In this document: piece after piece, positions 8,055-33,876 of the stretch | How positions within the stretch are numbered: the first letter of the stretch is position 1 | How the letters are laid out: every line of letters starts with the position of its first letter | Assembly (NCBI RefSeq): GCF_000183425.1 | Contig: NC_014759.1 | Location: forward strand, 2,139,001-2,203,000 | Reading direction: 5' to 3' | Source: Marivirga tractuosa DSM 4126 | GTDB lineage: Bacteria; Bacteroidota; Bacteroidia; Cytophagales; Cyclobacteriaceae | DNA: 64,000 bases | Notes under the pieces: generated by a model | The model's input: only the letters and a program-made list of their open reading frames with translations | Told to the model about the DNA's origin: nothing | Database searches by the model: none | Made by a program: the position numbers and the translations under genes

Positions 8055-8062
8055 ACTTTTCC

Positions 8063-10547: not shown

Positions 10548-11384
10548 CTATTCAAATTCAACCACCACTGGAAAATGATCTGATAAAAAAGTATCCTGGA
10601 TTCTTAAGCTATAATTTTTATAGCTTTTGATTTTAAAGCCTTGATAGAAAACATAATCTATTCTTCTCTCATAGTTTTCTCCGATTTTGAATGCATTGTA
10701 TGTTCCAATAGGTCCCAAATTTAATTCAGCTTCAAAAGCATCATTTAATTCTGAATCAATAATTTTTTGTATGGGTTTAGATTGAGGTTCTAAATTAAAA
10801 TCACCCATTAAGATTACTTTTCCATTATGTTCGAGTTCATTGATCTTTGACAAAATTAAATCCACACTTTTTGCACGTGCTTCACTTCCTACATGATCAA
10901 AATGGGTATTTAAAACAAGAATTAAATCCTTTGTATCCTGATCTATCAATTTAGCCCATGTGCAAACCCTTGGAAGTGCTGCATCCCATGCCTTAGCAGG
11001 AATCTGAGGATTTGGAGATAACCAAAAAGTTGCACTATCAATTATGGTATATCGATCCTTTTTATAAAAAATAGGAGAATATTCACCTTTGCTTTTTCCA
11101 TCATCTCTTGCCACTCCAATTCGAGCATATTCAGCTAAACCAGCTTCCAGAAACCGAATTTGTGAATGTACTACCTCTTGCATTCCAATGATATCAACAT
11201 CCTCTATTTTTATGAGTTTCAGAATTTGCTCTTTTCTGTTGTCCCATTGGTGAACTCCCTCCTTTGGGTTTTCATATTTGATGTTAAAAGTGCAGACTTT
11301 GGTTTGTGAAAACGAATTCACAGAAAAAAGGAGCACAACAGAAAAAATCATCCCATACTTTAGCATAAATACTGATTTATTCAC
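10548..11384 (-). CDS. Exported endonuclease/exonuclease/phosphatase-fold protein
   Basis: This 278-residue protein has a signal peptide (residues about 7-27, ending NSFSQ) and a DNase I-like EEP domain. Visible motifs are TFNIKY, the metal-binding Glu in IIGMQEV, LNTHFDHVG, MGDFNLEP and the C-terminal SDHFPVVVEF, which carries the catalytic His. Family members hydrolyse phosphodiesters in nucleic acids, phospholipids or inositol phosphates, and the substrate here is unknown. The GTG start at 11384 overlaps the TAG stop of the GH3 gene by one base (TAGTG). An ATG six codons later (11366) is the alternative. It is the last gene of the PUL operon. Confidence 0.85.
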   Translation of the reverse strand: MNKSVFMLKYGMIFSVVLLFSVNSFSQTKVCTFNIKYENPKEGVHQWDNRKEQILKLIKIEDVDIIGMQEVVHSQIRFLEAGLAEYARIGVARDDGKSKGEYSPIFYKKDRYTIIDSATFWLSPNPQIPAKAWDAALPRVCTWAKLIDQDTKDLILVLNTHFDHVGSEARAKSVDLILSKINELEHNGKVILMGDFNLEPQSKPIQKIIDSELNDAFEAELNLGPIGTYNAFKIGENYERRIDYVFYQGFKIKSYKNYSLRIQDTFLSDHFPVVVEFE

Positions 11385-13663
11385 TACTTCAGTTCAAATT
11401 CGGATTCTAAAACCTCATCGGAACTGGTTCCAACGAAAACTCTAAACTCACCAGGTTCCGCATAAAAGCTCATATCTTGATGATAGAACCCTAATTCTTG
11501 CTCACTCAAGGTGAATTCTACCGTTTTGGTCTCTCCTGCTTTCAATTCTATTTTTTGAAAGCCTTTCAGTTCTTTCACGGGGCGTGTAACAGTTCCCACC
11601 AGATCGCGGATGTATAATTGAACAACTTCTTTTCCGGTAACATTTCCTGTATTGCTAACTTCCACGGTAACCCTTAATTCACCCCCTTTATCTATGGCCT
11701 CTGAGCTTAATTTCAAATTATCATAAGAAAAATTAGTGTAACTTAATCCGTATCCGAAAGGAAATTCCGGTTCATTGCTCACATCCAAATAATTGGATTT
11801 GAATTTCTGGAACCACTCTCCTTCCAAAGGACGACCTGTGTTTTTATGAGCATAATAGATAGGAATTTGACCTACATTTTGCGGATAGGTCATGGTCAGT
11901 TTTCCGGATGGATTGACATCTCCGTATAAAACATCAGCCAAGGCCAAGCCCGCTTCAGAACCCGGAAACCATGCATTCAAAATAGCATCGGAATCTTCCA
12001 AAATCTCATCGAGTACCAATGGCCTTCCACTCAATAAAACTACCACGACTTTTTTACCAGTAGCTTTTAATGCCTTTAATAAATTCACTTGAACTTCAGG
12101 AATACTGATATCCGTTAAACTAGAACTTTCCCCTGAACTTTCTGAGGCCTCCCCTAAAACAGCCACTACTACATCAGAATTCTTAGCTAGGCTAACGGCT
12201 TCAGCAATCATCACAGATTCAGCCCTGTCATCACGATAGGTGTTTTTTCCAAACATCCCAATTCGTTCTTCTAAATCGGGATCTGCCACTAAATTTGAGC
12301 CTTTAGCATATTTTACATTTTCAGGATTAGTGGAAACTTCTTTAATCCCATCATAAATGGAGATGGACTTACTGATATCAGAACTCACACTCCAAGTACC
12401 TACCATATTTTCTTTATTGTTCGCCAATGGACCAATTAAAGCTATTTTAGCATCTTTCCGAAGTGGTAAAGCATCTTCATTTTTCAATAAAACCATGGAT
12501 TCAGATGCTACTTTCCGCGCAACTGCTCTGTTTTCATCGGAAAAAATTTCAGAAGCTCTTTCTTCATCCATATAGCGATAAGGATCATCAAAAAGACCTA
12601 ATTGAAACTTTGCTTTCAAAATCAGTCTAGCTGCATTTGTTATGGTTGCTTCGGAAACTTTCCCTTCCGCTACAGATTTTTCCAGTGTGGTCAAAAAGCC
12701 TTCACTTACCATATCCATTTCCACCCCGGCATTGATGGCCAATGCAGAAACCTGTTGTAAATCCCCCATTCCGTGGGCAATCATTTCGCTTACGCCTGTA
12801 TAATCGCTCACTACAAATCCATCAAAGCCCCATGCTTCGCGCAAAACATCGGTCATCAACCACTTATTACCAGTTGCTGGAACTCCATCTATTTCATTAA
12901 AAGAAGCCATAGCAGTTCCCACACCAGCATCGACTGCTGCTTTGTAGGATGGGAAATAATCGTTATACATTCTCAATCGCCCCATATCTACAGTATTATA
13001 ATCTCTTCCAGCTTCCGAGGCACCATAAAGCGCAAAGTGCTTTACACATGCCAACAAAGTGTTGGCTGCTGATAAATCATCTCCTTGATAACCCTTCACC
13101 ATAGCCTTGGCTATTTGAGCGCCTAAGTACGGATCTTCCCCGCTACCTTCCGAAACTCTACCCCATCTGGGGTCTCTAGAAATATCAGTCATAGGAGAGA
13201 AGGTCCAGGCAATGCCATCGGCTGATGCTTCTTGAGCAGCAATTCTTGCAGACTTTTCAATTAACTCCATATCCCAGCTTGCTGAAAGTCCGATTGGAAT
13301 TGGGAAAGTCGTTTTATATCCATGAATAACATCTTTAGCAATAATTAATGGGATGCCTAATCTACTTTCCTCTACTGCTACTTTTTGAACTGCTCGGATT
13401 TTATCCAACCCATTGATATTAAATAATCCACCTACTTTACCTTCTTTTATTTGCTTTGCAATGCCCTTATTGGTACTAATTCCAGTACTCACGTCACCAG
13501 CAGATGGCAAATTCAATTGGCCTATCTTTTCTTCAAGGGTCATGATAGCCAGCAGCGAATCTACCTTTTGATCGAGGTCAGCGGTACCTTTATCTTCTTG
13601 GGGATTGTTACATCCTCCTAATAAGAAAAGTAAACCTAATGCTGATAGTAATATAAATTTCAT
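11384..13663 (-). CDS. bglX: GH3 beta-glucosidase lipoprotein (BglX-like)
   Basis: This 759-residue periplasmic or surface lipoprotein has its lipobox at LLGGCN (Cys18). The N-terminal GH3 TIM-barrel spans about 35-370, with the catalytic nucleophile Asp287 in GFDGFVVSDYTG, the same position as in E. coli BglX. An alpha/beta sandwich domain follows (about 400-620), then a C-terminal fibronectin III-like domain (about 670-755). It removes glucose from non-reducing ends of beta-gluco-oligosaccharides. The ATG at 13663 is chosen because it begins the signal peptide and leaves 7 bp after the esterase gene. An upstream start at 13717 would overlap that gene. In this context the substrate is probably sophoro-oligosaccharides, since related Bacteroides GH3 enzymes act on beta-1,2-glucosides. 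That assignment is inference. Confidence 0.92.
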   Translation of the reverse strand: MKFILLSALGLLFLLGGCNNPQEDKGTADLDQKVDSLLAIMTLEEKIGQLNLPSAGDVSTGISTNKGIAKQIKEGKVGGLFNINGLDKIRAVQKVAVEESRLGIPLIIAKDVIHGYKTTFPIPIGLSASWDMELIEKSARIAAQEASADGIAWTFSPMTDISRDPRWGRVSEGSGEDPYLGAQIAKAMVKGYQGDDLSAANTLLACVKHFALYGASEAGRDYNTVDMGRLRMYNDYFPSYKAAVDAGVGTAMASFNEIDGVPATGNKWLMTDVLREAWGFDGFVVSDYTGVSEMIAHGMGDLQQVSALAINAGVEMDMVSEGFLTTLEKSVAEGKVSEATITNAARLILKAKFQLGLFDDPYRYMDEERASEIFSDENRAVARKVASESMVLLKNEDALPLRKDAKIALIGPLANNKENMVGTWSVSSDISKSISIYDGIKEVSTNPENVKYAKGSNLVADPDLEERIGMFGKNTYRDDRAESVMIAEAVSLAKNSDVVVAVLGEASESSGESSSLTDISIPEVQVNLLKALKATGKKVVVVLLSGRPLVLDEILEDSDAILNAWFPGSEAGLALADVLYGDVNPSGKLTMTYPQNVGQIPIYYAHKNTGRPLEGEWFQKFKSNYLDVSNEPEFPFGYGLSYTNFSYDNLKLSSEAIDKGGELRVTVEVSNTGNVTGKEVVQLYIRDLVGTVTRPVKELKGFQKIELKAGETKTVEFTLSEQELGFYHQDMSFYAEPGEFRVFVGTSSDEVLESEFELK

Positions 13664-13670
13664 CTTTATT

Positions 13671-14459
13671 TTATTTTGAATTTGAAAATAACCAAGTGAG
13701 CAATTCAGGCTCTGCAAAAGCAGGATCCCAGCTATTGTGATTCGCTTCTGGATAAAGCGTAAATTTCACATTAGCCCCAGCCGCCTTTAAACTTTTTACC
13801 ATTTCTTTTGAATACTCAGGATCAACAACATCATCTTTTGCTCCGTGAAACACCCATAAATCTGTCTTATCAGCATAATTGCCAACACTATAAGGATTGC
13901 CAGCACCACAAATTGCAATGGCTGCTGCAAATGTATTAGGCATCCTGCTCAAAATCTCAAATGTTCCCATGCCACCCATTGAGAGGCCACCAACATATAA
14001 TCTATTCTGATCGATAAAATGATTTTGGCTATATTGATCAAGTAGTTTCATTACCAATCCCAAACTTTTATTGGGCGTTCCTGAATAATCAAATCTGAAA
14101 GTATTGCCTTCAGTAGAGCGCACTATATCGGCCTTTGCCCAGTATTCCGAACTTGGGCATTGTGGGAAAATTACAACTGCAGGAAAATTCTCTCGGTTTT
14201 CTTGATTGAGAAACAATGAACTACCATGAACAAGCTGTTTTTCGTTATCACCTCCTCTTTCACCTGCGCCATGCAAAAATAAAACAAGTGGATATTTTTC
14301 GGCAGGATTAAAATTTTTAGGGTAAAGAATTCGGTAACTTAAAGTGTCCTCATCTTCAATTAATGTTGCTTTTAAAAATTCAGATTTATCCTGTGCATAT
14401 AAATTCAGGGTAAAGACCGTCAATAGAAATCCAATACAAAATTTCAGTTTATTCTTCAT
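13671..14459 (-). CDS. Exported prolyl-oligopeptidase/PHB-depolymerase-like esterase
   Basis: This protein of about 262 residues has a signal peptide (MKNKLKFCIGFLLTVFTLNL, then YAQ). The alpha/beta-hydrolase core starts at YPLVLFLHGAGERGGDN, the nucleophile elbow is GGLSMGGMGT, the acid lies in FHGAKDDVVDPE, and the His is in EANHNSW. This is the fold of secreted feruloyl/acetyl esterases and of the predicted peptidases often found in polysaccharide loci. It could remove acyl substituents such as succinyl or acetyl from the glucan, but this cannot be proven from sequence. The ATG at 14459 overlaps the end of the upstream GH144 gene by 11 bp, suggesting translational coupling. Confidence 0.85.
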   Translation of the reverse strand: MKNKLKFCIGFLLTVFTLNLYAQDKSEFLKATLIEDEDTLSYRILYPKNFNPAEKYPLVLFLHGAGERGGDNEKQLVHGSSLFLNQENRENFPAVVIFPQCPSSEYWAKADIVRSTEGNTFRFDYSGTPNKSLGLVMKLLDQYSQNHFIDQNRLYVGGLSMGGMGTFEILSRMPNTFAAAIAICGAGNPYSVGNYADKTDLWVFHGAKDDVVDPEYSKEMVKSLKAAGANVKFTLYPEANHNSWDPAFAEPELLTWLFSNSK

Positions 14460-15786
14460 AGTAAAATCCCAATTTAGAAAGCCCATTTTCGATTTCTTTA
14501 TTCTGCATAAAAAGTTCCCATATCAAGCCTGATCGATGGTTTTCGATCATGACAGGTATAGGACCTTGATCAATAGCCAAATAGCGAGGTACATACCAAT
14601 CATGCTCAAAAGAAAATGCATCATAAGGCCCATAATTCCCGATTAAACTGTCCCTTTTGGGTTCATACAAGAATTTTAGGAATTGCATGCTTTCCTTAGG
14701 CGTATAAGGAAAAGATGAAAGTGCTGCAGTTGGAGAAATCACACCTAAATCATCATCAGGATTATGTCCGGCATAGCCTTTCATGGAATAGCTAGAAGTT
14801 AAGCCCCACATATTTTCACCATATCCCTCGAATTCCTTAGGATTTTCTACTGCATATCTGTATTGTATCAATGCATGATTTTTATTCAAATCCCAGTAGT
14901 CCCCATATTTATCATTCAGATTTTTAGGATTTAAACCCAAATAAGAATAATGTGCCCAAAACAATGGTCCAACTGCTTTATCAGCATGTTCGTAATGATC
15001 CAAAATGGTAGGCAAACCGTATGCAGTGGTATCATTTGCAATAGCGCCATCTCTTGCCCAGCCTTTGTGATAAACATCAGCGTCTATTGCATGAGTTGGA
15101 GATGAAGCTGCCAAGACATACATTATCAAACATTCATTATAACCTCCTACTGGAAAATTCATATCCCACTCATAGTTGGGAGACCAGTGCCAGTATAGAA
15201 CATCTTCACCTTTTGTGTACCAATCCCATTCTACCTCTTCCCAGATCTTAGTAATTCTTTGTGCGAGATTTTTCTCTGCTTCAGTTGAGGCATCCAAAAA
15301 CTGCCTTACAGTTAGAAGACCCTGAATCAGAAAAGCTGTTTCAACTAAATCTCCACCATCATCCTTTTTGCTAAATGCTTTCACTTCTCCTGTTTCACCA
15401 TTCAACCAATGTGGGTAAGCCCCATGAAAACGGTCAGCTGTTTCAAGAAAACCCACTATTTTTCCGAATCTTTCGATGGCTTGAGCTCGCTCAATAAAGC
15501 CTCTTTCAACCCCCACAATGATGGCCATTAATCCAAAACCAGATCCTCCAGTCGTTACGATATGCTTGTCATTAGAAGGATAAATGTTATCCTCGTGAAA
15601 TCTTTCCCTGGCTAGTCCAGAATTAGGCTCAGCACCCTCCCAGAAGTATTGGAAAGTTTGATATTGCACTAAATTCAAGAGTGAATCCTCATCGATTTTA
15701 TTCGTGCTGGCTTCCTTTTCTTTTTGGGGTGAAGAACAAAAAGAGAAAAGAAGTGCCGTAGTAATTAATAAGAGTAAATTCTTCAT
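14449..15786 (-). CDS. GH144-type endo-beta-1,2-glucanase lipoprotein (glycoamylase-like fold)
   Basis: This 445-residue lipoprotein has its lipobox at LFSFCS (Cys17). It is a single (alpha/alpha)6-barrel of the glycoamylase-like family. Signature stretches are QTFQYFWEGAEPNSGLARER, VTTGGSGFGLMAIIVGVERG, GGDLVETAFLIQGLL, DVLYWHWSPNYEWDM and GYNECLIMYVLAASSPTH. The founding characterised enzyme of CAZy family GH144, from Chitinophaga, is an endo-beta-1,2-glucanase with this architecture. Automatic annotation often calls such proteins glucoamylase, which is misleading. It is homologous to the next gene, 15885-17879, suggesting tandem duplication. The exact linkage specificity is inferred. Confidence 0.85.
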   Translation of the reverse strand: MKNLLLLITTALLFSFCSSPQKEKEASTNKIDEDSLLNLVQYQTFQYFWEGAEPNSGLARERFHEDNIYPSNDKHIVTTGGSGFGLMAIIVGVERGFIERAQAIERFGKIVGFLETADRFHGAYPHWLNGETGEVKAFSKKDDGGDLVETAFLIQGLLTVRQFLDASTEAEKNLAQRITKIWEEVEWDWYTKGEDVLYWHWSPNYEWDMNFPVGGYNECLIMYVLAASSPTHAIDADVYHKGWARDGAIANDTTAYGLPTILDHYEHADKAVGPLFWAHYSYLGLNPKNLNDKYGDYWDLNKNHALIQYRYAVENPKEFEGYGENMWGLTSSYSMKGYAGHNPDDDLGVISPTAALSSFPYTPKESMQFLKFLYEPKRDSLIGNYGPYDAFSFEHDWYVPRYLAIDQGPIPVMIENHRSGLIWELFMQNKEIENGLSKLGFYYEE

Positions 15787-15884: not shown

Positions 15885-17879
15885 TTAAAAAGTAAATCCT
15901 AAATCATTTAATCCGTTTTGTACATCTGGGTCTTGCATGAAGATATTCCAGATCAATGCCGTTCGGTGATTTTCAATCATCGTAATAATAGGACCCTGGT
16001 CTATTGCTAAATAAGAATCCGCATACCAATCTTGGGTCACATTAAAAGCATCATAAAAGCCATATTCTCCCCATAACCTATCTCCTAACAAATAATAAAA
16101 ATGCCTGATGGCCTTCATAGATTCTTCGGGAGTATAAGGAATAGAGGAAATAGCGGCCGTTGGCGTAATTACACCCAAATCATTCCCAGGCGAATGAGCG
16201 CTATACCCCTGATGATTATCGCTGGCTGTTAAGCCCCAGCAAGCTTCACTGTAGCCCACAAAATTGTTGGGATTATCAATACAATAAGCTTGATTGATTA
16301 AGGAATGCGCCTGATTTTGTTCCCAATAATTGGCGTACTGATCTTGTAAATTTCGAGGATCTAAACCCAAAAAGGAATAATGTGCAAAAAACAAAGGACC
16401 ACCTCTATCTTCCCCTAATGGCATAGAGATACCATAAGTAGAATTTCCATTGACTATCCCTCCGTTTCTTGCCCAACCTGCATCATGAACTGATTTTTCA
16501 ATAGGATGAGTAGGCGATGAAGCAGCCAATACATAAATAATCAAACTTTCATTCCAGCCCCTAATGGGTAAATCCATGGCCCATTCATTTTCGGGCGACC
16601 AGTGCCAATACAAAACATCTTCTCCCCCTTTTGTAAACCAATCCCATTCAACTTCTTCCCATAGCGTGGTGATTTGATTGATAATGGCCAGTTCTTGTGC
16701 ATTTGATTCATCTAGATATTGTCTAACTGCCAATAGGCCTTGGATCATGAAGGCGGTTTCCACTAAATCTGCTCCATCATCCAATTCGCTAAACGGAATG
16801 GTATTCCCTGTATTTCCGTTCATCCAATGAGGCCAAACCCCATGAAATCGATCGGCATCGGCAAGAAAATTCACAATTCTTTCAAAGCGGTCTATCCCTT
16901 CCTGTCGGGTAATAAAGCCTCTCTCAACACCTACTATAATAGCCATTAAACCAAAGCCTGAACCTCCAATGGTCACTACATCACCAGATGTGTTTCTTTC
17001 TCTGGCCAACCCACTATTAGGATGGGCAAAATCCCAGAAATACTTAAAGGTTTGTTCCTGAATTTTGGTTAATAGTGCCTCATCTGATATTTCATCAAAT
17101 TTGTAGGTGGAATCCAACTGCGTATAAAAGCTTTTAGAAAAGCCTTGAAACTCAAATTCAACTTCACTTAGGAAATTTTCAGATATTCTAAAGTCGTATT
17201 TTACCAAGTCCCTTGCCTCTTCTTGGCTTTGGATTTGCAATGTTTTTTGGTCTTCTGAAAGGTTGAAACTTAAAGGCAAGCGAGCTCCTTTGTTTGTTAA
17301 TGTTATAAAATCTTCAAAATCTGTTTCTGGATTCAGGCTTTGATCAAAAGTCAAGATCATTTCAGGATTAAGCGAAACATCTTGAATCCTATTATTTGTT
17401 TGCAGTGAAATTCCATCAACTTCTGCACTCACTAATTGAAACTCTCCTTGCTGAGTTTGAAATTGATAGGTAGCACCTGGAAATTCCTTATTGTTAATGG
17501 AAAGTACAGCTTCTATAGAAACGGTATAAATGGTATTATTTTGAAAATCATTTTCTGGTATAGCGGAAACGGCTCTATCCTCATTCAAATAGGAAAAATT
17601 TAAGGCTATATTTCCTTCATCTGTGGAAATGGAAATATTTTCTTCGGCTGAGCTCCTATCTAATGCGTCAGTAAATTCAATGACAAGTCCTTTGTCAAAT
17701 GGGGCATCTTCGGTTAATTCATTTTCAACTAAATCTAGCGTCCCAAGTCTTATGGTTTTCAATTGCAATAATCCCGTTTCATCGGGTTCTTGTTCTGGGT
17801 TTTCTTGGCAGGAATAAATGAAACCACTGAAAAAGGCTACTAGAATTAAATAAAATAAGGGTCTAAGTGAATTAAACAT
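15885..17879 (-). CDS. GH144-type endo-glucanase lipoprotein with N-terminal Ig-like domains
   Basis: This 664-residue lipoprotein has its lipobox at FIYSCQ (Cys24). Residues about 35-145 and 150-255 resemble two bacterial Ig-like (Big_5) domains; LVIEFTDALD and MILTFDQSLN are the paired first strands. A GH144-like catalytic domain follows (about 275-660), with QTFKYFWDFAHPNSGLARER, TIGGSGFGLMAIIVGVERG, GADLVETAFMIQGLLAVRQY and GWNESLIIYVLAASSPTH. The catalytic part is clearly paralogous to the protein of 14449-15786. The extra Ig modules probably hold the enzyme away from the outer membrane as a surface glucanase, while the shorter paralogue may act in the periplasm. That division is inference. 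Confidence 0.85.
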   Translation of the reverse strand: MFNSLRPLFYLILVAFFSGFIYSCQENPEQEPDETGLLQLKTIRLGTLDLVENELTEDAPFDKGLVIEFTDALDRSSAEENISISTDEGNIALNFSYLNEDRAVSAIPENDFQNNTIYTVSIEAVLSINNKEFPGATYQFQTQQGEFQLVSAEVDGISLQTNNRIQDVSLNPEMILTFDQSLNPETDFEDFITLTNKGARLPLSFNLSEDQKTLQIQSQEEARDLVKYDFRISENFLSEVEFEFQGFSKSFYTQLDSTYKFDEISDEALLTKIQEQTFKYFWDFAHPNSGLARERNTSGDVVTIGGSGFGLMAIIVGVERGFITRQEGIDRFERIVNFLADADRFHGVWPHWMNGNTGNTIPFSELDDGADLVETAFMIQGLLAVRQYLDESNAQELAIINQITTLWEEVEWDWFTKGGEDVLYWHWSPENEWAMDLPIRGWNESLIIYVLAASSPTHPIEKSVHDAGWARNGGIVNGNSTYGISMPLGEDRGGPLFFAHYSFLGLDPRNLQDQYANYWEQNQAHSLINQAYCIDNPNNFVGYSEACWGLTASDNHQGYSAHSPGNDLGVITPTAAISSIPYTPEESMKAIRHFYYLLGDRLWGEYGFYDAFNVTQDWYADSYLAIDQGPIITMIENHRTALIWNIFMQDPDVQNGLNDLGFTF

Positions 17880-17956: not shown

Positions 17957-19270
17957 TTATGGTCTTTCTGCTTCGTAAAGCGTAGCTACATCATCTTCAG
18001 AATAGGCAGCATGAATGATTCTAAAATCATCTAACCATCCTTTAAAATGGTTAGCATTTGGATTTTCATAGTTTCCAAATGCTGCATCATCAAATAAAGT
18101 TCCTGCACGAGAATGAATAAAGCCTAAAGCTAAATCATCAAATACCTCAGGTTCTGCACCTCTATAGTCAACACCTGCAGCTGTTTGCTTTGGATCACCA
18201 TCTGGCCAAAGATTAAAATCAAAGCTCTTCATTAATTCACCGTTGAAATATAAATATCCCTTTTTCTCTGCGGCATTATAAGTGAACACATTATGATACC
18301 ATGTTTGAGTTATTGTATTTTTCATTTCGGTAACACTTAAGCTTCTTGCAAAATCCCAACCTTGCCATCCACCATTTGTATTATCGGTAGCATTGCTTGG
18401 AAAGAACATATCTTCTGCAAATTGGGTACCCTCATCATTTACATAGGAAACTGCATATTTAGAGCCATCATAAGAACCAAATATTTCATATTGAATACCA
18501 TAGAAAGCACCTAAACCGAATACAAACATTCCAGTTTGGTTTCCATCATCATTAAAATGATTAGTAGTATCAGGTTTTAGCCAAAAACTAATTGTGAAAT
18601 CTTGTGTCTCAGTCATAAGAGCGCCCGCATCTGCAATCTCAATAATACTTGCGTCACCATCAAAATATGCTGCACTTTCGATTGTTCCAAATCTATCTGC
18701 CTGATATTCAACTTCTACTTCTGTTCCGTCTGCATAGTTACCCATTTCATCTGATGCATTACCATCTAGCTTCCAATATGCCACTTGAGCATCTTCTTGC
18801 GGAGCTACTACGGGCAATCTTCCCGCTGTCTCAAAGGTTCTTGAACCATTTGTTACAGTTCCACCATCAGAAGCGAGTAAAGCAGTAGAGACTGTAACCG
18901 TATAGTCTGTTCCTTGAATCAATTCTTCATTTGGAGTTACCGTCACAACGCTTCCATCAGCAGTAACAGTTAAAGCAACATCATTATCGCCATCACTTAT
19001 GGAAATATTTGAAGCACTTACTGTTTCGGTATCAATTTCTCTATCAAATGTAATTTCGAAAACTGCATCAGGTGGCACATCAGATGCCGAACTTGCAGCA
19101 TTCAAGTCAACAGTTACTTCTTCGCCTGTTTCAAGACTAGTTCCTGTGGCAGTTAAAGCTTCAATGGTTAAAGCAGGTGCTTCACCTTCTTCGTCATCGC
19201 AAGCCGTAAAAACCAGTGCTCCTAGTATTAATGCACCGATCCAATACTTCATTTTACTTAGCATTCTCAT
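17957..19270 (-). CDS. Surface lipoprotein with Big_5 and LamG-type domains (candidate glycan-binding protein)
   Basis: This 437-residue lipoprotein has its lipobox at VFTACD (Cys24). Residues about 32-150 form a Big_5/Ig-like domain (DAVFEITFDREIDTETVSAS, then VTPNEELIQGTDYTVTVS). Residues about 165-430 form a concanavalin-like LamG domain (VAYWKLDGNASDEMGNYADG, FTISFWLKPD, GWLDDFRIIHAAYSEDDV). No hydrolase signature is visible. Its place directly after susD is that of the surface glycan-binding proteins (SusE/SGBP-B type) of PULs, so binding of the glucan at the cell surface is the likely role. Three Met codons (residues 1, 3 and 7) could start translation. Confidence 0.8.
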   Translation of the reverse strand: MRMLSKMKYWIGALILGALVFTACDDEEGEAPALTIEALTATGTSLETGEEVTVDLNAASSASDVPPDAVFEITFDREIDTETVSASNISISDGDNDVALTVTADGSVVTVTPNEELIQGTDYTVTVSTALLASDGGTVTNGSRTFETAGRLPVVAPQEDAQVAYWKLDGNASDEMGNYADGTEVEVEYQADRFGTIESAAYFDGDASIIEIADAGALMTETQDFTISFWLKPDTTNHFNDDGNQTGMFVFGLGAFYGIQYEIFGSYDGSKYAVSYVNDEGTQFAEDMFFPSNATDNTNGGWQGWDFARSLSVTEMKNTITQTWYHNVFTYNAAEKKGYLYFNGELMKSFDFNLWPDGDPKQTAAGVDYRGAEPEVFDDLALGFIHSRAGTLFDDAAFGNYENPNANHFKGWLDDFRIIHAAYSEDDVATLYEAERP

Positions 19271-19298: not shown

Positions 19299-20774
19299 TT
19301 AATTCCAGTTTGGGTTTTGGTCTAGTAAACCGTTGGTTATGTCTCGTTCAGATTGTGGTATAGGCAATAATTCATGTTTATCTGTTTGAAAGCCGTAAGG
19401 ACCGAATATATCTGCTGCATTTCCAGTTCTCACTACATCCCAAAATCTATGGCCTTCCATAGCTAATTCATGCCTTCTTTCTCTCAAAATTAAATCTTCT
19501 AAAAGGTCTGGATTAGTTTCAGTAATGTCTGGCAATATGGACTCATCTCCTTGGCGAGCTCTTTCTCTTACTTCATTAAGATAAATTAAGGCTTGAGGAG
19601 TACTTCCATTTCGATTTAATGCTTCGGCAGCTATTAATAGGACTTCGGCATATCGAATTAGTCTTCTATTATGGGCTCTATTAGAAAAAGGAGTTGTTCC
19701 AGGCACCCAAATTTTCTGATTATAAGTTTCAATTTGCCCTGTGTCTGTAGTATCGGGTGTTTGGGAATCACCAATAATTTCAATGCCATCCAAAACTTCT
19801 CCTACAAAAATCACAGTAGCATCCATTCTTGGATCATCTTCTTCAAAAGATTCGATCAAATCCATAGATGGTCTATTAGCTCCTATTCCTCTATTGGGTG
19901 ATCCTCTTACTCCCTGACCACTGGTATAGTCATTATTCCCAGCTGCTACACCACCCTCAACTCCAATTCCGCCAATTTCAAAAACAGATTCTATTCCAAA
20001 TTCTGTTGATTCTCTGAACGCACTTTCAAAGTTACTTTCCAATTCGTACTGTTGAGAATTTATTACTTCTTCAGCAAAAAGAGCCGCACTATCATATTCT
20101 TGTTGATATAAATATACTCTTGCCAATAATGCCCGAGCTGCTCCTTTTGTGGCTCTTCCTAAGTCCTCTGGACCATATTCGGATTTTTCTGGTAAGACTT
20201 CAATTGCACTTCGCAAATCCGACTCAATAAAATCATAAGTTTGCTCTAAAGTGGACCGCGTAAAGTCAATATTAATTTCGGAGTTTTTAACTAAAGGTAC
20301 TCCTCCGTAGCCTCTTGCCAAATCAGAATAATATAAAGCCCTAAGAAAACGGGCTTCACCTATAAACCTCGATTTTAATTCTTCATCCATATTGACACTA
20401 GGCACACGCTCTATCACTACATTAGTGCGTCTCACTCCCGTGTATAATGCTGACCACCAATTGGCAATAAAGTTATTAGTAACAGTATGCTGAAATTCAT
20501 CAAAAGGCTGAAGGTCAGCCTGAAGGTCTGAAGGACTACTCCCTTTCAAAGCATCATCTGACATCACATCATCAATAGGATAAAATCCTCTATGATAAGA
20601 ACCAGTTCTCAAAACTTGATAAGATGCATTAGTGGCAGCTAGTGCATCTGATTCATTAGAAGGGAAATTATCTTGCGTAATAAGATTCTGCGGTGGTTTC
20701 TCTAAAAATTCATCTTTACATGAAAACAAAATCACCGTAAGAAATACGACCGATAGTACGAAAATTCTTTTCAT
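19299..20774 (-). CDS. susD: SusD/RagB-family outer-membrane glycan-binding lipoprotein
   Basis: This 491-residue lipoprotein has its lipobox at ILFSCK (Cys19). SusD family features are visible: the N-terminal FLEKPPQNLITQDNFPSNES segment, TPR-like helices with RFIGEARFLRALYYSDLARGYGG and KGAARALLARVYLYQQEYDSA, and the C-terminal RRLIRYAEVLLIAAEALNRN and ERRHELAMEGHRFWDVVRTG blocks. It forms the lid over the SusC barrel and captures oligosaccharides. I chose the ATG at 20774, which starts the signal peptide 10 bp after the susC stop. A longer start (20825) would overlap susC. It is directly coupled to susC as in all PULs. Confidence 0.95.
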   Translation of the reverse strand: MKRIFVLSVVFLTVILFSCKDEFLEKPPQNLITQDNFPSNESDALAATNASYQVLRTGSYHRGFYPIDDVMSDDALKGSSPSDLQADLQPFDEFQHTVTNNFIANWWSALYTGVRRTNVVIERVPSVNMDEELKSRFIGEARFLRALYYSDLARGYGGVPLVKNSEINIDFTRSTLEQTYDFIESDLRSAIEVLPEKSEYGPEDLGRATKGAARALLARVYLYQQEYDSAALFAEEVINSQQYELESNFESAFRESTEFGIESVFEIGGIGVEGGVAAGNNDYTSGQGVRGSPNRGIGANRPSMDLIESFEEDDPRMDATVIFVGEVLDGIEIIGDSQTPDTTDTGQIETYNQKIWVPGTTPFSNRAHNRRLIRYAEVLLIAAEALNRNGSTPQALIYLNEVRERARQGDESILPDITETNPDLLEDLILRERRHELAMEGHRFWDVVRTGNAADIFGPYGFQTDKHELLPIPQSERDITNGLLDQNPNWN

Positions 20775-20784
20775 AATTATTCGT

Positions 20785-23754
20785 TTAAAAATTAAGGTTA
20801 ATTCCTGCTGTGTAAATACTTGCAACCGGATAGGTACCTGTATCTATCCCATTAATCAATGGGTTACCATTGGCTACTTCTGGATTATATCCTGTGAAAT
20901 CACTTAAAGTGAACACATTATTTCCTCTTAAAAACACCCTAGCCGATGTCATTCCAATGTTTTTTATAAAATCTTGAGAGAGATTATATGAAAGCGTAAC
21001 CGTTCTTAATCGAAAGAAGCTTCCATCTTGGATATAACGTGATGAAATTCTATAATTATTCCCTCCCTCAGTCGGTCTTGGTTCCGTATTGCTAGTTCCT
21101 TCGCCTCTCCAATAATCATAGTATCTAGCCTCATAATTATAAAGAGCTGGCCTTACAGTTTCTTTATAATTTAATATCTCATTTCCTTCTTGCCCTTGAA
21201 AAAGGACATCTAAACTAAAATTTCTATAAGAAGCCCCTAAGCTGATTCCGTAGGTTAAATCTGGAATAGGTGAACCGATAAATGTTCTATCATCACCGTT
21301 TATTACTCCATCATCATTAATATCGGCAAAAATAAGATCCCCAGGATTTGTCCCCGTAAAAGATGGAGTATTAGCAATTTGATCTTCATTTTGAAAAACT
21401 CCTTCTACCTGATAGCCATAAAACGCTCCAATAGGAAGCCCTGCTTCTGTTCTGGAAACTACATCGTTATTAATTCTTCCAAATAATTGGTCTGAACCCT
21501 CAACCCCACTAACGAAAAGCATTTCATTATTGAGAGTGGCTCCATTAATTCCAATAGTATACTCGACTTCTCCAACATCATCTTGCCATTGAACATTAAA
21601 TTCTAAACCACTATTCCTTACTTCCCCCGCATTAAAAAAGACATTGCTATTACCATTTCCTAGATAACTAGGAACAGGCAAGTCTATCAAAATCCCTTCT
21701 GTGGTTCTTTGGTAATAATCAAACTCACCTAACAATCTTGCTTCAAACAAATCAATTTCTAATCCAATATCAAACTGCTCAACTATTTCCCATTTGAGGT
21801 CTGGATTTCCGAAACCACTATCAGATTGACCAAAATATATCTGTTCTTCCTCTCCGAAGACTGCATTTAAATCATTCCCTATCACGTTATAGGCCGATAA
21901 ATAAGAAATTTTATCATTACCAACCCGACCCCAACTACCTCTAATTTTTAGATTGGTAATTTGTTCCGGAAGGTTAATAAACTCTTCATTGATGACATTA
22001 TATCCTAACCCTACTGCTGGAAAATTTCCAAACTTATTATCTCCTAAAAACTTAGATGATCCATCTCTTCTGAAAGTAAGAGTGGCGATATAACGATTAT
22101 CGAATGAATAATTTAATCTTCCTAAGTATGAAATTTGATTATAGAAATCTCCTACATCCCTGATACCATTTTGTATACTATTAGGATCCAGGTTATTAGG
22201 ATTTAGATATCTAAAATCATTACCATCTCTAAATAAATCTCTTCCTATAAGATTTAAATTCTCGTTGGTAACACTTTGAACTGTATAGCCCACTACTGCA
22301 TTAATCTGATGCTGTTCAATAGTTTTATCATAATTTAAAGTGTTTTCCCAAATGATTGACGAACGTCTGAATAGGTTTTTGGAAAAACTATTGACTTCAT
22401 TTTGTTGAGGAGAATCTCCTACTGAATATACTGGTGTGAATGATTCATTTTCTTCCAATAGTAACTCAATTCCTAAGCTGGTTTTAAATGTAAATCCATC
22501 CCAAAAAGTAGCTTCGCCAAAAAGTTGACCAACCGTAGTAATTCCTCTGGTTTTATTATCAGTATTGTATTTAAAGTCTGCCAAAATATTACCCACATTT
22601 GGCACCACATTAAAATTCCCATTTTCATCTTTAGGAGAAATAATCGGCCATGCCCGGTAAGCATTAAAAGGTGCATTTCCTATCGTATTATCTCTGTTTG
22701 ACAAAGAAAAATTAAGATTGGCCCCGATAGAAAGAAAAGACTTCGGGCGGTAACGTTCATTGAATTTCAAATTCAGTCTTTGAAATTGCGATTCCGGAAT
22801 AGTTCCCTTTTGATCAAAATAGCCCAATGAAAAATAATACTGATTCTTTTCGGATGCTCCTGAAAGAGATAATTGGTGGTTTTGAATTGGGGCGGGCTCA
22901 AATATTAGCTCTTGCCAATTAGTTTCAGGTAAAGCACCTACATTGTTGTACGTCCCGGGATTAATTACATTTACGACCTCAGCAAACTGATCTCTATTTA
23001 ATAAATCAATTCTATTTTGCTGAATTTGAATGCTGAACTCAGAGGAAACTGAAAGCGTAGGTTTTTTACCCTCTTCTCCTAATTTGGTACTTACAATAAT
23101 TACTCCATTTGCCCCTCTATTTCCATATATTGCCAATGCAGAGGCATCTTTCAGTACTTCGATGGATTCAATATCTGTAGAGTTAAGAAATGAGATATCA
23201 TTGGTAATTACTCCATCTACCACATAAATAGGTGATGGATTCCCAGATGTACCTACTCCTCTTATTCTTACTATTGGTGAACTTCCAGGGGCCCCAGAGG
23301 AATTAGTTATTTGAACACCGGATACTTTTCCTTGCAAAGCATCAACTGGATTTGCAGTAGGAACTGTCTTGAGCTCTTCGCCTTTAATAGATGTTACAGA
23401 ACCTGTTAAATCACTCTTTTTAATTGCACCATATCCAACTACAACTACTTCCTCAAGCGCTTCTATATCTTCTTTTAATTCAATATTTATGGTAGACCTG
23501 CCGTTTACAGATACTTCCTGAGTCTTATATCCTATAAATGAAAAACGCAAAGTGGCATTTTCATCTAAATTCAATTTATAATTACCATCTATGTCAGTAA
23601 TTGTCCCTCTGTCGGTTCCTATAACTTGAATGGATACCCCTGGAATAGGTTCTTGATTGGCAGCATCCGTTACTGTTCCTTTTAATTCTACTTGAGCCAT
23701 GGCAGAGCTGGCCATGAGAAATAATAAGAAAACTAATCGTATAATTTTATTCAT
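20785..23754 (-). CDS. susC: SusC/RagA-family TonB-dependent outer-membrane transporter
   Basis: This 989-residue protein has a signal peptide (residues 1-20, ending AMA). A CarboxypepD_reg-like (DUF4480-type) domain spans about 22-105 (LKGTVTDAANQEPIPGVSIQ). The SusC-type linker and TonB-box region is LEEVVVVGYGAIKKSDLTGS. The plug domain spans about 115-230 with IRGVGTSGNPSPIYVVDGV, followed by a beta-barrel ending in an aromatic residue (YTAGINLNF). It imports oligosaccharides with energy from TonB/ExbBD. The first gene of the PUL, it is preceded by a 265-bp intergenic region that should contain the operon promoter; I found no exact TAnnTTTG box there. Confidence 0.96.
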   Translation of the reverse strand: MNKIIRLVFLLFLMASSAMAQVELKGTVTDAANQEPIPGVSIQVIGTDRGTITDIDGNYKLNLDENATLRFSFIGYKTQEVSVNGRSTINIELKEDIEALEEVVVVGYGAIKKSDLTGSVTSIKGEELKTVPTANPVDALQGKVSGVQITNSSGAPGSSPIVRIRGVGTSGNPSPIYVVDGVITNDISFLNSTDIESIEVLKDASALAIYGNRGANGVIIVSTKLGEEGKKPTLSVSSEFSIQIQQNRIDLLNRDQFAEVVNVINPGTYNNVGALPETNWQELIFEPAPIQNHQLSLSGASEKNQYYFSLGYFDQKGTIPESQFQRLNLKFNERYRPKSFLSIGANLNFSLSNRDNTIGNAPFNAYRAWPIISPKDENGNFNVVPNVGNILADFKYNTDNKTRGITTVGQLFGEATFWDGFTFKTSLGIELLLEENESFTPVYSVGDSPQQNEVNSFSKNLFRRSSIIWENTLNYDKTIEQHQINAVVGYTVQSVTNENLNLIGRDLFRDGNDFRYLNPNNLDPNSIQNGIRDVGDFYNQISYLGRLNYSFDNRYIATLTFRRDGSSKFLGDNKFGNFPAVGLGYNVINEEFINLPEQITNLKIRGSWGRVGNDKISYLSAYNVIGNDLNAVFGEEEQIYFGQSDSGFGNPDLKWEIVEQFDIGLEIDLFEARLLGEFDYYQRTTEGILIDLPVPSYLGNGNSNVFFNAGEVRNSGLEFNVQWQDDVGEVEYTIGINGATLNNEMLFVSGVEGSDQLFGRINNDVVSRTEAGLPIGAFYGYQVEGVFQNEDQIANTPSFTGTNPGDLIFADINDDGVINGDDRTFIGSPIPDLTYGISLGASYRNFSLDVLFQGQEGNEILNYKETVRPALYNYEARYYDYWRGEGTSNTEPRPTEGGNNYRISSRYIQDGSFFRLRTVTLSYNLSQDFIKNIGMTSARVFLRGNNVFTLSDFTGYNPEVANGNPLINGIDTGTYPVASIYTAGINLNF

Positions 23755-23912
23755 AAGAAAACATTTTAGGCATCTAAAAAAGCCGTAATTCTAACTTATT
23801 TTATTTGAAGTTACATGAATGTTTTCTTGAAATCAAAATTTAAAAATGGATATTTTTATATTATACAATTGAAAAAAAAGGCACATTTTCAATTTATATA
23901 ACGCTTTAAAAA

Positions 23913-23928
23913 CATAATATATATTATG
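23913..23928. promoter_or_regulatory. 16-bp perfect palindrome upstream of susC (candidate operator)
   Basis: CATAATATATATTATG is a perfect inverted repeat lying about 160 bp upstream of the susC start and about 90 bp after the stop of the putative regulator gene. A dimeric HTH regulator could use it. The surrounding DNA is very AT-rich, so chance is a real alternative. Otherwise 23755-24019 shows only AT-rich sequence. Confidence 0.3.
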
Positions 23929-24019: not shown

Positions 24020-25858
24020 TTATCTTGCTTCCACGAAATTTGTTAGCCTTTCGTATCCAAAGTGAAGCAAGTTGTTGAGATATGCCTTACCGTTATTTTC
24101 TATTTCTACTTCCACTTTACGCTTAAATTCCCAAATAGTATTTCTTCGCATCTCCATTATTTCTGCAAGTTCGTCCAGAGTATAGCGATCCTCATTGAGG
24201 TGCGTATATACAATGAAAAATGCTTTGGGTATATCAAATTTAATGCCTTTAAAAATGGTGTATGCAGTGGGGCTTTCATTATATCCACATTTGGTGCATC
24301 TTCTTGCCAAATTTTCATTATTGAGATAATATTTTTTGCTGTCACATTTCTGACATTCAAATCCATCCTTCCATTTAAATGAAGCTAGTATTTCTAGGCA
24401 TTGGTCTTTGGTATTAAAGATTTCCGTAAACTCATCGAAATTAAGGTTCTTATTTAAAAGCCTTTCACGCTGTATTTTTTTAATATTATTTTTCAATCGA
24501 TAATTATCTAAGTCGAGCATAGAATTAATTTGTGCAATTTCCCTAGACTGCTTATTGATCTGCGCGTTTCTTTGTTCCAGCTCTATATTTTTCTCATTCA
24601 AATCCTTAGTTCTTTCTTCTACTTTCCTTTCTAGTCCTCTATTTATTCTATTAATTACCTGCACATTCTGCTCATGCTGCGTTACAATTCTCTTCAAAGC
24701 GCGGTCTCTATTTGCTTTCAATATTCTAACCCGATCAGACAATGCAAAAGTCAAAAATAGCATCTCCAGTATAAAACCTATATGCAAGCTGTAGTAATTA
24801 AAAGTGTTGAAAGGTATAATTGACCAATTGATTAGCGCACGCATTAAAAATCCTAAAAATAATATGCCGTACGCCACCACGAAGAATCGTGCAGGTTTGT
24901 AGCCCCTTCTAAAAACAAAAATACTGCTTATAAAAATTATGGAAAGCAGTATGATTTCAATATTCCGAAACCGGAATAAACTAGGATCGAAAAATAGTGA
25001 ATAAAGGAAAAATGCAGATCGTGCCGTTAAAACAGCAATAATTAATTTATGAATTTTGGGTGATCTCATTTTTGTATTCAAAAAACGTATGGAAAATATA
25101 GTTGACCATAGGATAATCGAATAGAGTGCCACACCATACGCTAACTGATTCCAATCCGGCTGCTCAGGCCATAAATATTGATAAGCTATACCGTCAATAC
25201 ACAATGCATAAAAACCAACACTCAAAATGTAGAAAGTATAGTAAATATATTTAATTTCTCTTATAGCCAGGAAAATCAATAAATTATAAAGTGAAATGAT
25301 TAAAATCATCCCGTAAAAAATTCCATATAGAAAATATTCATTTAGGCTATACTGAATAAAACGGTCTATACGCTTTATAGCAATTCTAATATCAGCATAT
25401 TGTGAATTCCGAACTTGAATGTATGCTTCATATTCACTGTTGGCATCTAGTGTCAAATCGAAGTTTTTGTGCTTGATGGATTTGCTACTGAATGGATAGG
25501 CATCCCCCAAATTATACTTTCTAAACACACCTTTATCTTGCCTTATAAATACATTTATACTGTCTATAGTTTGATCATAAAACTCCAATATATAATTTCC
25601 TTCATATTCGGGGAGTACAAAGTTTAATTGCACCCAGTAGGTAGAATTCCTATTATAATCATCGGGTTCAAAATCCGTTCTTTGCCTAAAATTTGATTCA
25701 AAGGAAGGGGATTTAACATCTGAAAAAGTCAGCTGATTGCTTTTGTCCTCATATGAATACAACTCCTTCATGCCTAGAATTACCTCATCCTGATCTTGAT
25801 TTATTTCAAGGGGGCTAAATGAAATTTGAAATGATAAAATGAATATATATAGCAACAT
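24020..25858 (-). CDS. 7TMR-DISM sensor fused to IS1595-type zinc ribbon and HTH: candidate membrane-bound PUL regulator
   Basis: This 612-residue protein has five parts. They are a signal peptide (about 1-15); a periplasmic 7TMR-DISMED2-type jelly-roll domain (about 25-155; NRNSTYWVQLNFVLPEYEGN); a seven-helix 7TMR-DISM membrane domain (about 165-385); a long coiled coil (about 390-480); and a cytoplasmic C-terminus. The last part has a zinc ribbon, Cys502-x2-Cys505-x15-Cys521-x2-Cys524. It is followed by SPTAYTIFKGIKFDIPKAFF and an HTH (TLDELAEIMEMRRNTIWEFK). This matches the N-terminal DNA-binding region of IS1595-family transposases; the DDE catalytic domain is absent. 7TMR-DISM proteins usually end in kinase, cyclase or LytTR/LuxR outputs. 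The position just upstream of susC suggests a carbohydrate-sensing transcription regulator. The function is inference. Confidence 0.75.
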   Translation of the reverse strand: MLLYIFILSFQISFSPLEINQDQDEVILGMKELYSYEDKSNQLTFSDVKSPSFESNFRQRTDFEPDDYNRNSTYWVQLNFVLPEYEGNYILEFYDQTIDSINVFIRQDKGVFRKYNLGDAYPFSSKSIKHKNFDLTLDANSEYEAYIQVRNSQYADIRIAIKRIDRFIQYSLNEYFLYGIFYGMILIISLYNLLIFLAIREIKYIYYTFYILSVGFYALCIDGIAYQYLWPEQPDWNQLAYGVALYSIILWSTIFSIRFLNTKMRSPKIHKLIIAVLTARSAFFLYSLFFDPSLFRFRNIEIILLSIIFISSIFVFRRGYKPARFFVVAYGILFLGFLMRALINWSIIPFNTFNYYSLHIGFILEMLFLTFALSDRVRILKANRDRALKRIVTQHEQNVQVINRINRGLERKVEERTKDLNEKNIELEQRNAQINKQSREIAQINSMLDLDNYRLKNNIKKIQRERLLNKNLNFDEFTEIFNTKDQCLEILASFKWKDGFECQKCDSKKYYLNNENLARRCTKCGYNESPTAYTIFKGIKFDIPKAFFIVYTHLNEDRYTLDELAEIMEMRRNTIWEFKRKVEVEIENNGKAYLNNLLHFGYERLTNFVEAR

Positions 25859-26052: not shown

Positions 26053-27555
26053 ATGTTCAATTCAAAACCTTTCAATCCCTTGGCTTATCTTGCTATTGTA
26101 CTAATTTCAACTTTTTGGTCAGCTTGCTCACAAAAAAAAGAGGAATACAAAGCTACAGATACAAATTCGCAAGCACAGAAAATTACACTAGAGCCTTTTG
26201 CAAATAATAATGGTGTATACCCACCTGATTCCATTTATTCCGGACCATTTTTTAAAGCAAATTACGATTACCCAGAAAAAGTAGCTCCCAAAGAATATCC
26301 ATGGGAGAACATCACAGCAGGTCAGCCCATCACTCAAGAAAATGCTGCTGATTATATCATGTCCATCAGAAAATACATTGGCGATGCTATGGCTAAAATG
26401 ATTGATGAACCAGAGAATTGGCCAAACAGTGAATTCCGAAAAGATTGGTACAATATGGCTTGGAGTGCTCAAACCTATGAAAAACAGGGATGGGAAGGCC
26501 TCGAAACGGTCTATGGAACTATGACTGGACAGGTACTAAAAAACGATATTTTTAAAGACTACGGATTTGAAGGCCCCATGCAAAATCATGCATTGGTTTA
26601 TTATAATGATGTAGCCTCTCTTACCCTAAATGAACTATGGAAATCGAATGATGAAAGTGGTTTCTATCCAGAATATACTACTAAAGCCGCACAGTTTAAA
26701 CAAAACGCTATTATTATCAAAGCTGCAGGTACTACGGCAACAGCTGAAGACTGGGATATTATGGAAGGCGCAAAAACTTTCCCTATTTACAGAGAGATGG
26801 CTTTTGGACCGATGAAAGGCAAAGGTCCTGTTTTGCAGGATTTGGCTTGGATACAATTTGATATTATTATTAAGGATACTATTGCGGCACCAGAAACAGG
26901 CTGGGTATTTTCCACTTTTATTTACGACAAAGAAAGTGAAGGTAAAACCACTTTTGAACGCCTAGAGCTTTTGGGAGTTGCTTGGGGAAATGACCCAGGA
27001 CAAATGGATACTAGCAAAGCATTGACTGAAACATACCTGAATCCTGACGCTCCAGATTATTACAAGGCTAATATAGGATACGGAGATCGACTTTCAGGCC
27101 CTATTGATGTAGCCATGGTAGGCGGAATAACTGCAGATGGAACCCCCGATAGCGTTTTTGTATTAGATGAACAAGGAACAGCATCAGGCGGTAAATCGTA
27201 TTTACACTTTAGAGCTTCTGCTTGTATGAGTTGTCATGGCACTGCTACATTCCCACCACAAAATGACTTCTACCCATCGCCTAAGCAAAATTTAGTATAT
27301 ACTGACACGCTTTATAATCCTTCAAGCAAAGGCTGGAGTAATTACTTTCAAAATAGAGCAGGGACTGAAATTATGCCTGCTTTGGATGGAAAGCAAAAAT
27401 CAATTATGGCTTTGGACTATGACTTATTTATGCAGTTTGCACTAAACAACTCACGATTGGCAGGAAATTACGATAACAAACCTGAAAAACCGCAAGATTA
27501 TAAAGGTTTAAGCCATGAAGAATATCCAGCACTTTACATGCCGAGGTCTAAATAA
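26053..27555 (+). CDS. Large lipoprotein with a single heme c motif (uncharacterised)
   Basis: This 500-residue lipoprotein has its lipobox at FWSACS (Cys25). A single CxxCH heme c site, CMSCH (Cys391, Cys394, His395), lies in the C-terminal third in the context FRASACMSCHGTATFPPQND. Possible distal Met ligands follow but cannot be assigned. The N-terminal 380 residues are rich in Trp/Tyr and acidic residues and resemble no domain I recognise. The protein would be attached to the periplasmic or outer face and might carry electrons or sense redox state. It is transcribed divergently from the 7TM regulator (194-bp gap) and ends at a hairpin, so it is a single-gene transcript. Confidence 0.65.
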   Translation: MFNSKPFNPLAYLAIVLISTFWSACSQKKEEYKATDTNSQAQKITLEPFANNNGVYPPDSIYSGPFFKANYDYPEKVAPKEYPWENITAGQPITQENAADYIMSIRKYIGDAMAKMIDEPENWPNSEFRKDWYNMAWSAQTYEKQGWEGLETVYGTMTGQVLKNDIFKDYGFEGPMQNHALVYYNDVASLTLNELWKSNDESGFYPEYTTKAAQFKQNAIIIKAAGTTATAEDWDIMEGAKTFPIYREMAFGPMKGKGPVLQDLAWIQFDIIIKDTIAAPETGWVFSTFIYDKESEGKTTFERLELLGVAWGNDPGQMDTSKALTETYLNPDAPDYYKANIGYGDRLSGPIDVAMVGGITADGTPDSVFVLDEQGTASGGKSYLHFRASACMSCHGTATFPPQNDFYPSPKQNLVYTDTLYNPSSKGWSNYFQNRAGTEIMPALDGKQKSIMALDYDLFMQFALNNSRLAGNYDNKPEKPQDYKGLSHEEYPALYMPRSK

Positions 27556-33865: not shown

Positions 33866-33876
33866 CTTTTCTATTT

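Follow-up and report, generated by a model that had tools for sequence, protein, structure and literature searches.

The control of PULs in Bacteroides is described by Ravcheev et al. (PMC3878776) as relying on three Bacteroidetes-specific systems, namely the SusR-like regulators, the HTCS and the ECF sigma/anti-sigma pairs. SusR is presented there as an activator whose C-terminal domain, in that account, shows no significant similarity to other factors. Its operators are predicted in the same source as direct repeats with 67 or 77 bp between centres, i.e. six or seven helix turns, and those of the HTCS as direct repeats averaging 21 bp apart. The DISMED2 domain of NicD is linked to carbohydrate binding in the description given in PMC8544897, and the signalling helix is reported in PMC1592074 to join sensors to HTH domains at low frequency.

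The window analysed here, a stretch of 64,000 nucleotides of the Marivirga tractuosa DSM 4126 genome, contains next to a PUL a gene (hereafter the regulator) that very probably encodes a membrane-bound one-component transcription regulator with a transposase-derived DNA-binding head, most likely activating the SusC-SusD-GH144(-GH3) genes through a direct repeat. Its domains, the neighbouring genes and the putative operator are located in Table 1.

Table 1. Features of the regulator gene and of the adjacent PUL (positions in the window)
Feature	Position	Strand	Basis
GH3 hydrolase, probably beta-glucosidase	11384..13717	-	Pfam
Alpha/beta hydrolase, esterase-like	13671..14486	-	Pfam
GH144-type endo-beta-1,2-glucanase	14449..15786	-	Pfam; 5gzh E 1.8e-178
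PF10091 hydrolase with Big_5 domain, GH144-type	15885..17879	-	Pfam
Big_5 / Laminin_G_3 surface protein	17957..19270	-	Pfam
SusD-like lipoprotein	19299..20825	-	Pfam
SusC-like TonB-dependent transporter	20785..23754	-	Pfam
Putative operator half-site 2, ATGTTTTTAAAGCGTTATAT, 65 bp from half-site 1	23896..23915	-	motif search, half-site model
Putative operator half-site 1, TTGTTTTTTAATCAGGATAA	23961..23980	-	half-site model
Regulator gene: DISMED2 - 7TM - coiled coil - IS1595-type zinc ribbon + HTH, 612 aa	24020..25858	-	single open frame
IS1595-transposase-type head (zinc ribbon, linker, HTH), res. 471-591	24086..24448	-	module profile, tree
Predicted HTH, about res. 560-583	24110..24181	-	alignment with corresponding transposase region
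Zinc ribbon, res. 484-526, Cys502/505/521/524	24281..24409	-	PF12760 28.3 bits
Probable coiled coil, about res. 385-465	24464..24706	-	sub-threshold hits + sequence
7TMR-DISM_7TM seven-helix membrane domain, res. 174-376	24731..25339	-	PF07695 E 5.1e-46; hydropathy
7TMR-DISMED2 sensor, periplasmic, res. 32-160	25379..25765	-	Pfam PF07696 E 1.1e-23

An earlier note on this DNA had read the protein as a DISMED2 domain and a seven-helix domain followed by a zinc ribbon built on four cysteines, and had suggested comparing the C-terminus with the IS1595 families. Pfam recovers both receptor domains, the four cysteines lie at the positions proposed and are invariant in 29 aligned sequences, and the C-terminal segment matches Zn_ribbon_IS1595 (PF12760) above the cut-off of 25.4 bits. 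A fifth cysteine, C487 (24398-24400), ahead of the zinc ribbon, is invariant together with the other four in 74 module sequences, in regulators and transposases alike. The HTH of the module is a predicted one. Hydropathy indicates a signal peptide and seven transmembrane segments, the positive loops lying on the same side as the C-terminus. Coiled-coil-rich models match around residues 380-465 below threshold, and the NCBIfam matches all stand far under their cut-offs, mostly within this presumed coiled coil. Pfam finds in the protein no kinase, receiver or AraC domain, and no DDE domain (PF12762), the absence of the latter having been claimed from the outset.

Both 7TMR-DISM domains are present in all 74 divergent, non-redundant family members scanned (74 of the 111 rows of the full-length tree presented below, given a size limit and open ORFs), and PF12760 is found at E<=0.01 in 69 of them, the cysteine columns being still invariant in the other five. 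The dN values between the regulator and its counterparts in the genus-mates G007 and G004 range from 0.065 to 0.093 with dS saturated or near 2, which points to purifying selection. Since the domains recur in divergent relatives and the gene is under purifying selection, this architecture is not due to chance. The regulator is the sole PF12760 match above the cut-off in the M. tractuosa genome. Four other proteins of this genome match its sensor and membrane part, with differing C-termini that include, as judged by eye, kinase- and SpoIIE-like ends.

The gap between the regulator and susC is exactly 265 bp, as the earlier note had it. Labels of the flanking genes were given by eye and checked by Pfam for SusC, SusD, the two PF10091 enzymes, the GH3 and an endonuclease/phosphatase-like gene. 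The enzyme encoded at 14449-15786 aligns end to end (residues 26-441) with the solved endo-beta-1,2-glucanase 5gzh_A, and the same gene run encodes a second PF10091 enzyme, a GH3 and an esterase-like protein. We take PF10091 and 5gzh to correspond to GH144. From the match to 5gzh and the accompanying genes, the substrate of this PUL is probably beta-1,2-glucan. This probable glycan, the operator-like direct repeat and a sister branch lying mostly off PULs, both described below, go beyond the earlier note. Other features of the window include a 500-aa protein (26053-27555) with no Pfam match and a CMSCH haem-like motif, which is also found beside the regulator in L029 and L031, and a 1759-aa protein (27699-32978) combining Ser/Thr kinase, AAA ATPase, GAF and SpoIIE phosphatase domains. 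A two-ORF insertion sequence, IS3-like by eye, occurs in two copies (143-1386 and 7656-8899) of equal ORF lengths and identical translated starts that flank a 6 kb stretch.

The genomic context was surveyed in 80 named loci, the best-matching of 316, and describes the close relatives of the regulator, not the whole family. In 62 of these 80 loci the regulator is followed directly, counting genes of 130 aa or more, by a co-oriented SusC; in 3 SusC comes second, in 2 it is divergent, in 12 something else is found, and one locus has no downstream gene on its contig. One of the 62, L123, actually carries a different TonB receptor. GH144 is encoded among the next seven genes in 53 of these 62 loci and in 44/44 of those with more than 6.5 kb of contig remaining. 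The SusC-linked regulators span about 18 named genera, plus MAGs, and the arrangement persists while the identity of the module to that of M. tractuosa drops to about 40%. A MAG (L119) is labelled Rickettsiales, but its regulator groups tightly with Marinoscillum and the bin is probably mislabelled or mixed.

A direct repeat, new here, lies in the gap between the regulator and SusC. Expectation-maximisation on 63 such gaps, with 8 shuffled sets as control, yielded a 28-bp motif with a log-likelihood of 551 versus 123-148 in the shuffled sets, exceeding 12 bits in 59/63 gaps versus 1/315 shuffles. Once this motif was masked, the best remaining one turned out to be the same sequence again, some 65 bp further upstream. 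With a shared half-site model, tTGTTtTTaAagCGnaAa, direct-repeat pairs over 10 bits are found in 59/63 gaps and in 7/315 shuffles, at spacings (60-70 bp allowed) of 63 (2 pairs), 64 (23), 65 (21) and 66 bp (13); when 20-110 bp are allowed, 55 of the 59 pairs remain at 63-66 bp. The four gaps under 10 bits include L146 (3.0) and L123 (-5.7). A self-comparison using no motif model gives, for the PUL group, the highest means at the spacings 65, 64 and 66 out of 91, and reveals no excess of 65-bp direct repeats in the non-PUL group or clade B. The pair pattern occurs once in the M. tractuosa genome, and its reversed control does not occur. In the fetched loci, 2.60 Mb in all, 63 pairs score at least 20 bits, 58 of them before SusC beside the regulator, four beside the regulator before another ORF (L034, L087, L106, L127) and one at the end of contig L123. 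The gaps scored by the weight matrix were also those used to train it, most of the 2.60 Mb served in training and some loci overlap within one genome (e.g. L034 and L087), so that the weight lies on the absences and on the untrained cases L034/L087, L106, L107, L123, L135, L090 and L092.

In L034, L087, L106 and L107 the pair goes with the operon. It stands before an inserted esterase-like gene in L034 and L087 (one genome) and before an inserted gene in L106. In L107 (2871-5224) the regulator is followed by a pair (19.9 bits, 65 bp) and then by a GH30 glycosidase with a secretion tail, with no SusC. The site of L135 is located just before SusC, about 1.6 kb from the regulator (25.4 bits; its partner, 65 bp upstream, has 7.2 bits), and that of L123 about 4.3 kb from the regulator, at the contig end. 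Where regulator and SusC are divergent, in L090 and L092, a weaker pair (18.7 and 13.0 bits) faces SusC; an additional 12.4-bit pair at 69 bp faces the regulator in L092, which therefore discriminates little. That the motif could be a 3' element of the regulator gene is disfavoured by the distant sites of L135 and L123 and by the SusC-facing pairs of L090 and L092. Autoregulation through the motif was rejected, the motif being found in 0/77 gaps upstream of the regulator gene itself. The motif is also absent from the SusC-linked members of clade B (L047, L050, L220), and where SusC is missing from scanned loci of clade A or of no assigned clade, L107 is the one locus showing a clear site beyond the regulator gene, most of these loci having none over 11 bits. 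The direct repeat is a candidate operator tied to the regulator, which would contact it.

The same protein acting on the same site might be a repressor, the membrane dimer blocking the operon until the glycan frees it, which we consider unlikely. In 13 of the pairs over 10 bits, half-site 2 precedes the ATG of SusC by 118-185 bp, a position that does not separate an activator from a repressor. No canonical -7 element was found at a fixed distance from the motif, so that promoter geometry does not establish activation, and the joint loss of regulator and PUL reported below does not discriminate either. It is the likeness to the predicted operator geometry of SusR, an activator, that speaks against repression.

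It is less probable still that the direct repeat is read by another regulator (e.g. an HTCS or a global factor), the 7TM protein acting by protein contact with its zinc ribbon as contact domain. Zinc ribbons can indeed bind protein, as a matter of general knowledge, but the module retains its HTH region and the pair stays beside the regulator when the target switches to the GH30 of L107. Moreover, the pair remains below threshold in all 8 homologous GH144 PUL promoters without the regulator gene. These belong to a wider sample of 59 genomes, in which GH144 occurs in 15 genomes outside the genus, 6 of them with a match to the module at E<=1e-25 and 9 with none. At the 8 regulator-less GH144 loci with a readable SusC, an ECF sigma/FecR pair fills the pre-SusC slot in two (L250:4443-6506, L252:6143-8070), and the other neighbours tested are not regulators.

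Ordinary synteny, in which a non-regulating 7TMR-DISM protein hitch-hikes with the PUL and its C-terminus is a decaying transposase scrap, would be very improbable. Adjacent genes may stay together by chance or transfer, and another M. tractuosa 7TMR-DISM-like sensor (L261:6834-13440, a kinase by eye) is encoded just downstream of a SusC/SusD pair. Since L261 also adjoins SusC/SusD, proximity alone is weak evidence, and adjacency is controlled by the contrast between clades A and B and by the few SusC-like places of the genome (7 matched stretches). Against synteny stand the persistence of the arrangement at low module identity, purifying selection with the invariant cysteines, the specific cis site and the fate of the regulator within the genus, where regulator and GH144 are, at the thresholds used, both present in 7/10 genomes and both missing in 3/10. 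In G006 a broken 5' part of the regulator is left and the PUL is absent; this remnant sits between homologues of the genes 9115-10308 and 33371-33880, which flank this region in M. tractuosa. The regulator is lost together with the PUL within the genus. The position of a PUL regulator, ascribed to this gene by the earlier note, is borne out by its conservation in some 18 named genera, by this co-loss and by the link with the direct repeat.

The likeness of the C-terminal module to the N-terminus of IS1595 transposases, also proposed from the start, extends to an end-to-end alignment. Searching residues 470-612 against 5.8 billion proteins, with candidates limited to similar lengths, gave 28 matches, all with a 7TMR-DISM_7TM domain; the best match of the module among PDB sequences has an E of only 0.056. 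A module profile (A2) of 121 positions, built from 20 divergent relatives, was run on the ORFs of 21 loci (20 fetched for PF12762, plus L207). Several full-length transposases match it nearly throughout, i.e. L207 with 132 bits (positions 2-119), L173 with 118 and L178 with 107, the other transposases reaching only 25-55 bits. The homology with genuine IS1595 transposase heads runs for some 118 residues, through zinc ribbon, linker and HTH. Pfam confirmed the DDE domain in 7 of 9 ORFs tested (L207, L227, L241, L173, L178, L171, L233), the two short ORFs L230 and L232 having the ribbon only. The 232 module-bearing ORFs yielded 181 distinct modules in which 90 residues or more were matched, and 105 of these entered a tree of 118 columns, modules of unclear position or over 72% alike being left out. 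In this midpoint-rooted tree, whose bootstrap had not settled, 85 receptor modules and one propeller module form a single clade (100/84) nested among the transposases, and the closest group outside is a multi-copy element of genome G385 (join 99/91). This topology is consistent with a single capture of a transposase head by receptors, the direction from transposase to regulator being read from the nesting and the fusion. The G385 element (L227, L236, L238-L249) is of the IS1595 group, and its transposase head is the one most closely related to the regulator module. Pfam scores for its DDE part are modest in the two ORFs tested (L227, L241).

The regulator is not a transposase: its IS1595 head stands C-terminal to a receptor and is not accompanied by a DDE part. 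A transposase or decayed insertion sequence was ruled out by the absent DDE, the conservation and the receptor fusion. That it be a transposase or a transposition inhibitor acting on IS1595 ends has next to no probability despite its homologous head, as the protein has no DDE and a membrane receptor attached, the M. tractuosa genome has no PF12762 match at E<=1e-10, and the PUL-linked site is a direct, not an inverted, repeat. An origin of the operator from IS terminal repeats was looked for in 14 elements; a convincing inverted repeat was found only in L246 and L173, neither clearly operator-like.

The module is matched in 72/194 genomes of an order-level sample (E<=1e-8, true transposases counted in), with at most 14 matches per genome, and in 16/296 genomes of a phylum sample (E<=1e-18), G385 having 15 transposase-like copies. 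The full-length tree, obtained by a quick method and showing several long branches, comprises 111 of 136 module-bearing ORFs, the identical ones, those over 85% alike and those over 900 aa being dropped. Its side A contains 61 PUL-linked members, 5 without SusC and 4 unassigned; side B contains 3, 27 and 11, respectively. The PUL label changes 7 times on this tree versus a mean of 27 when shuffled. The link to SusC, which the earlier note expected from a survey of homologues, holds for the close relatives (62 of the best 80 of 316 loci) and mostly fails in clade B (3 with versus 27 without SusC). This sister branch, with up to 14 module copies per genome, lies mostly away from PULs. SusC was seen at 2 of 40 paralogue loci from sampled genomes (L220, L221). 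Clade B shows large expansions off PULs (L184-L209; genomes G152, G098, G227), and among its members some lie beside an RND efflux operon (L204) or beside genes for a GH16 enzyme and a GH3 (L197). The IS1595 module is also joined to Reg_prop and Y_Y_Y sensors instead of the receptor in L212 (6903-9893) and L214 (3874-6906), the ribbon of the latter scoring 18.2 bits, below the PF12760 cut-off; these are HTCS-type sensors in which the module replaces kinase, receiver and AraC, a one-component counterpart of HTCS.

A broader scenario appears likely, with less confidence than the regulatory role itself. The transposase head would have been captured once in the Cytophagales lineage and become a general receptor output domain, like LytTR or AraC, on 7TMR-DISM and HTCS-type propeller sensors, in as many as 14 copies per genome. 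One branch would have founded a fourth class of PUL regulators gripping from the membrane direct repeats six helix turns apart, a geometry apparently independent of SusR.

In the mechanism that we propose, the periplasmic DISMED2 would sense a glycan cue, most likely a beta-1,2-glucan oligosaccharide, and the signal would run through the seven helices and a dimeric coiled coil to the cytoplasmic DNA-binding head captured from an IS1595-group transposase. The membrane-held dimer would bind both half-sites of the direct repeat, which are separated by 63-66 bp, or six helix turns, and precede the operon; its most likely effect would be activation of SusC-SusD-GH144(-GH3). DNA contact, dimerisation, the ligand and activation rather than repression are the steps that we infer. 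Membrane anchoring may favour such a long half-site spacing.

If this reading is true, the regulator represents a fourth kind of PUL regulator beside the SusR-like, HTCS and ECF systems, the three listed in PMC3878776. It would show a domain of a bacterial transposase put to use in a regulator tethered to the membrane, and closely related transposons still exist for comparison. It would supply a regulator for beta-1,2-glucan use. Its predicted regulon, ligand and operator are directly testable. It also raises the question of whether a membrane-held dimer favours sites about 65 bp apart, as the predicted spacing of SusR suggests.

Compared with the described systems, the regulator resembles the SusR-like proteins (B. 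thetaiotaomicron BT3705 and its paralogues) as a membrane protein with a periplasmic sensor, a cytoplasmic C-terminal HTH and a control of SusC/D that is here predicted. It differs from them by its DISMED2+7TM sensor and its IS1595-type zinc ribbon and HTH. Its spacing of 63-66 bp has a different value from the 67 or 77 bp predicted for SusR in PMC3878776, the likeness being one of geometry. Like HTCS, it unites a sensor, here presumably for a glycan, and a DNA-binding domain in a single membrane protein and is predicted to regulate a PUL, but it has no kinase, receiver or AraC domain, and its spacing departs from the 21 bp predicted for HTCS in PMC3878776. The ECF sigma/FecR pairs of L250 and L252 take the same slot before a homologous GH144 SusC, with unrelated proteins and mechanism. 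As in IS1595-family transposases, zinc ribbon, linker and HTH follow one another in the module, which unlike theirs is C-terminal, behind a receptor, and has no DDE. The protein has the extracellular DISMED domain, the 7TM and the intracellular module by which 7TMR-DISM receptors are defined, and NicD of Pseudomonas aeruginosa has the same 7TMR-DISMED2 - 7TM arrangement with a different output, a GGDEF diguanylate cyclase. The earlier note regarded the output as unusual for a 7TMR-DISM protein, which stands for the IS1595 head; a DNA-binding output as such has a precedent in the DNA-binding domain of the ChiS family, presented in its description as a cryptic HTH variant of proteobacterial genomes with no transposase tie mentioned there.
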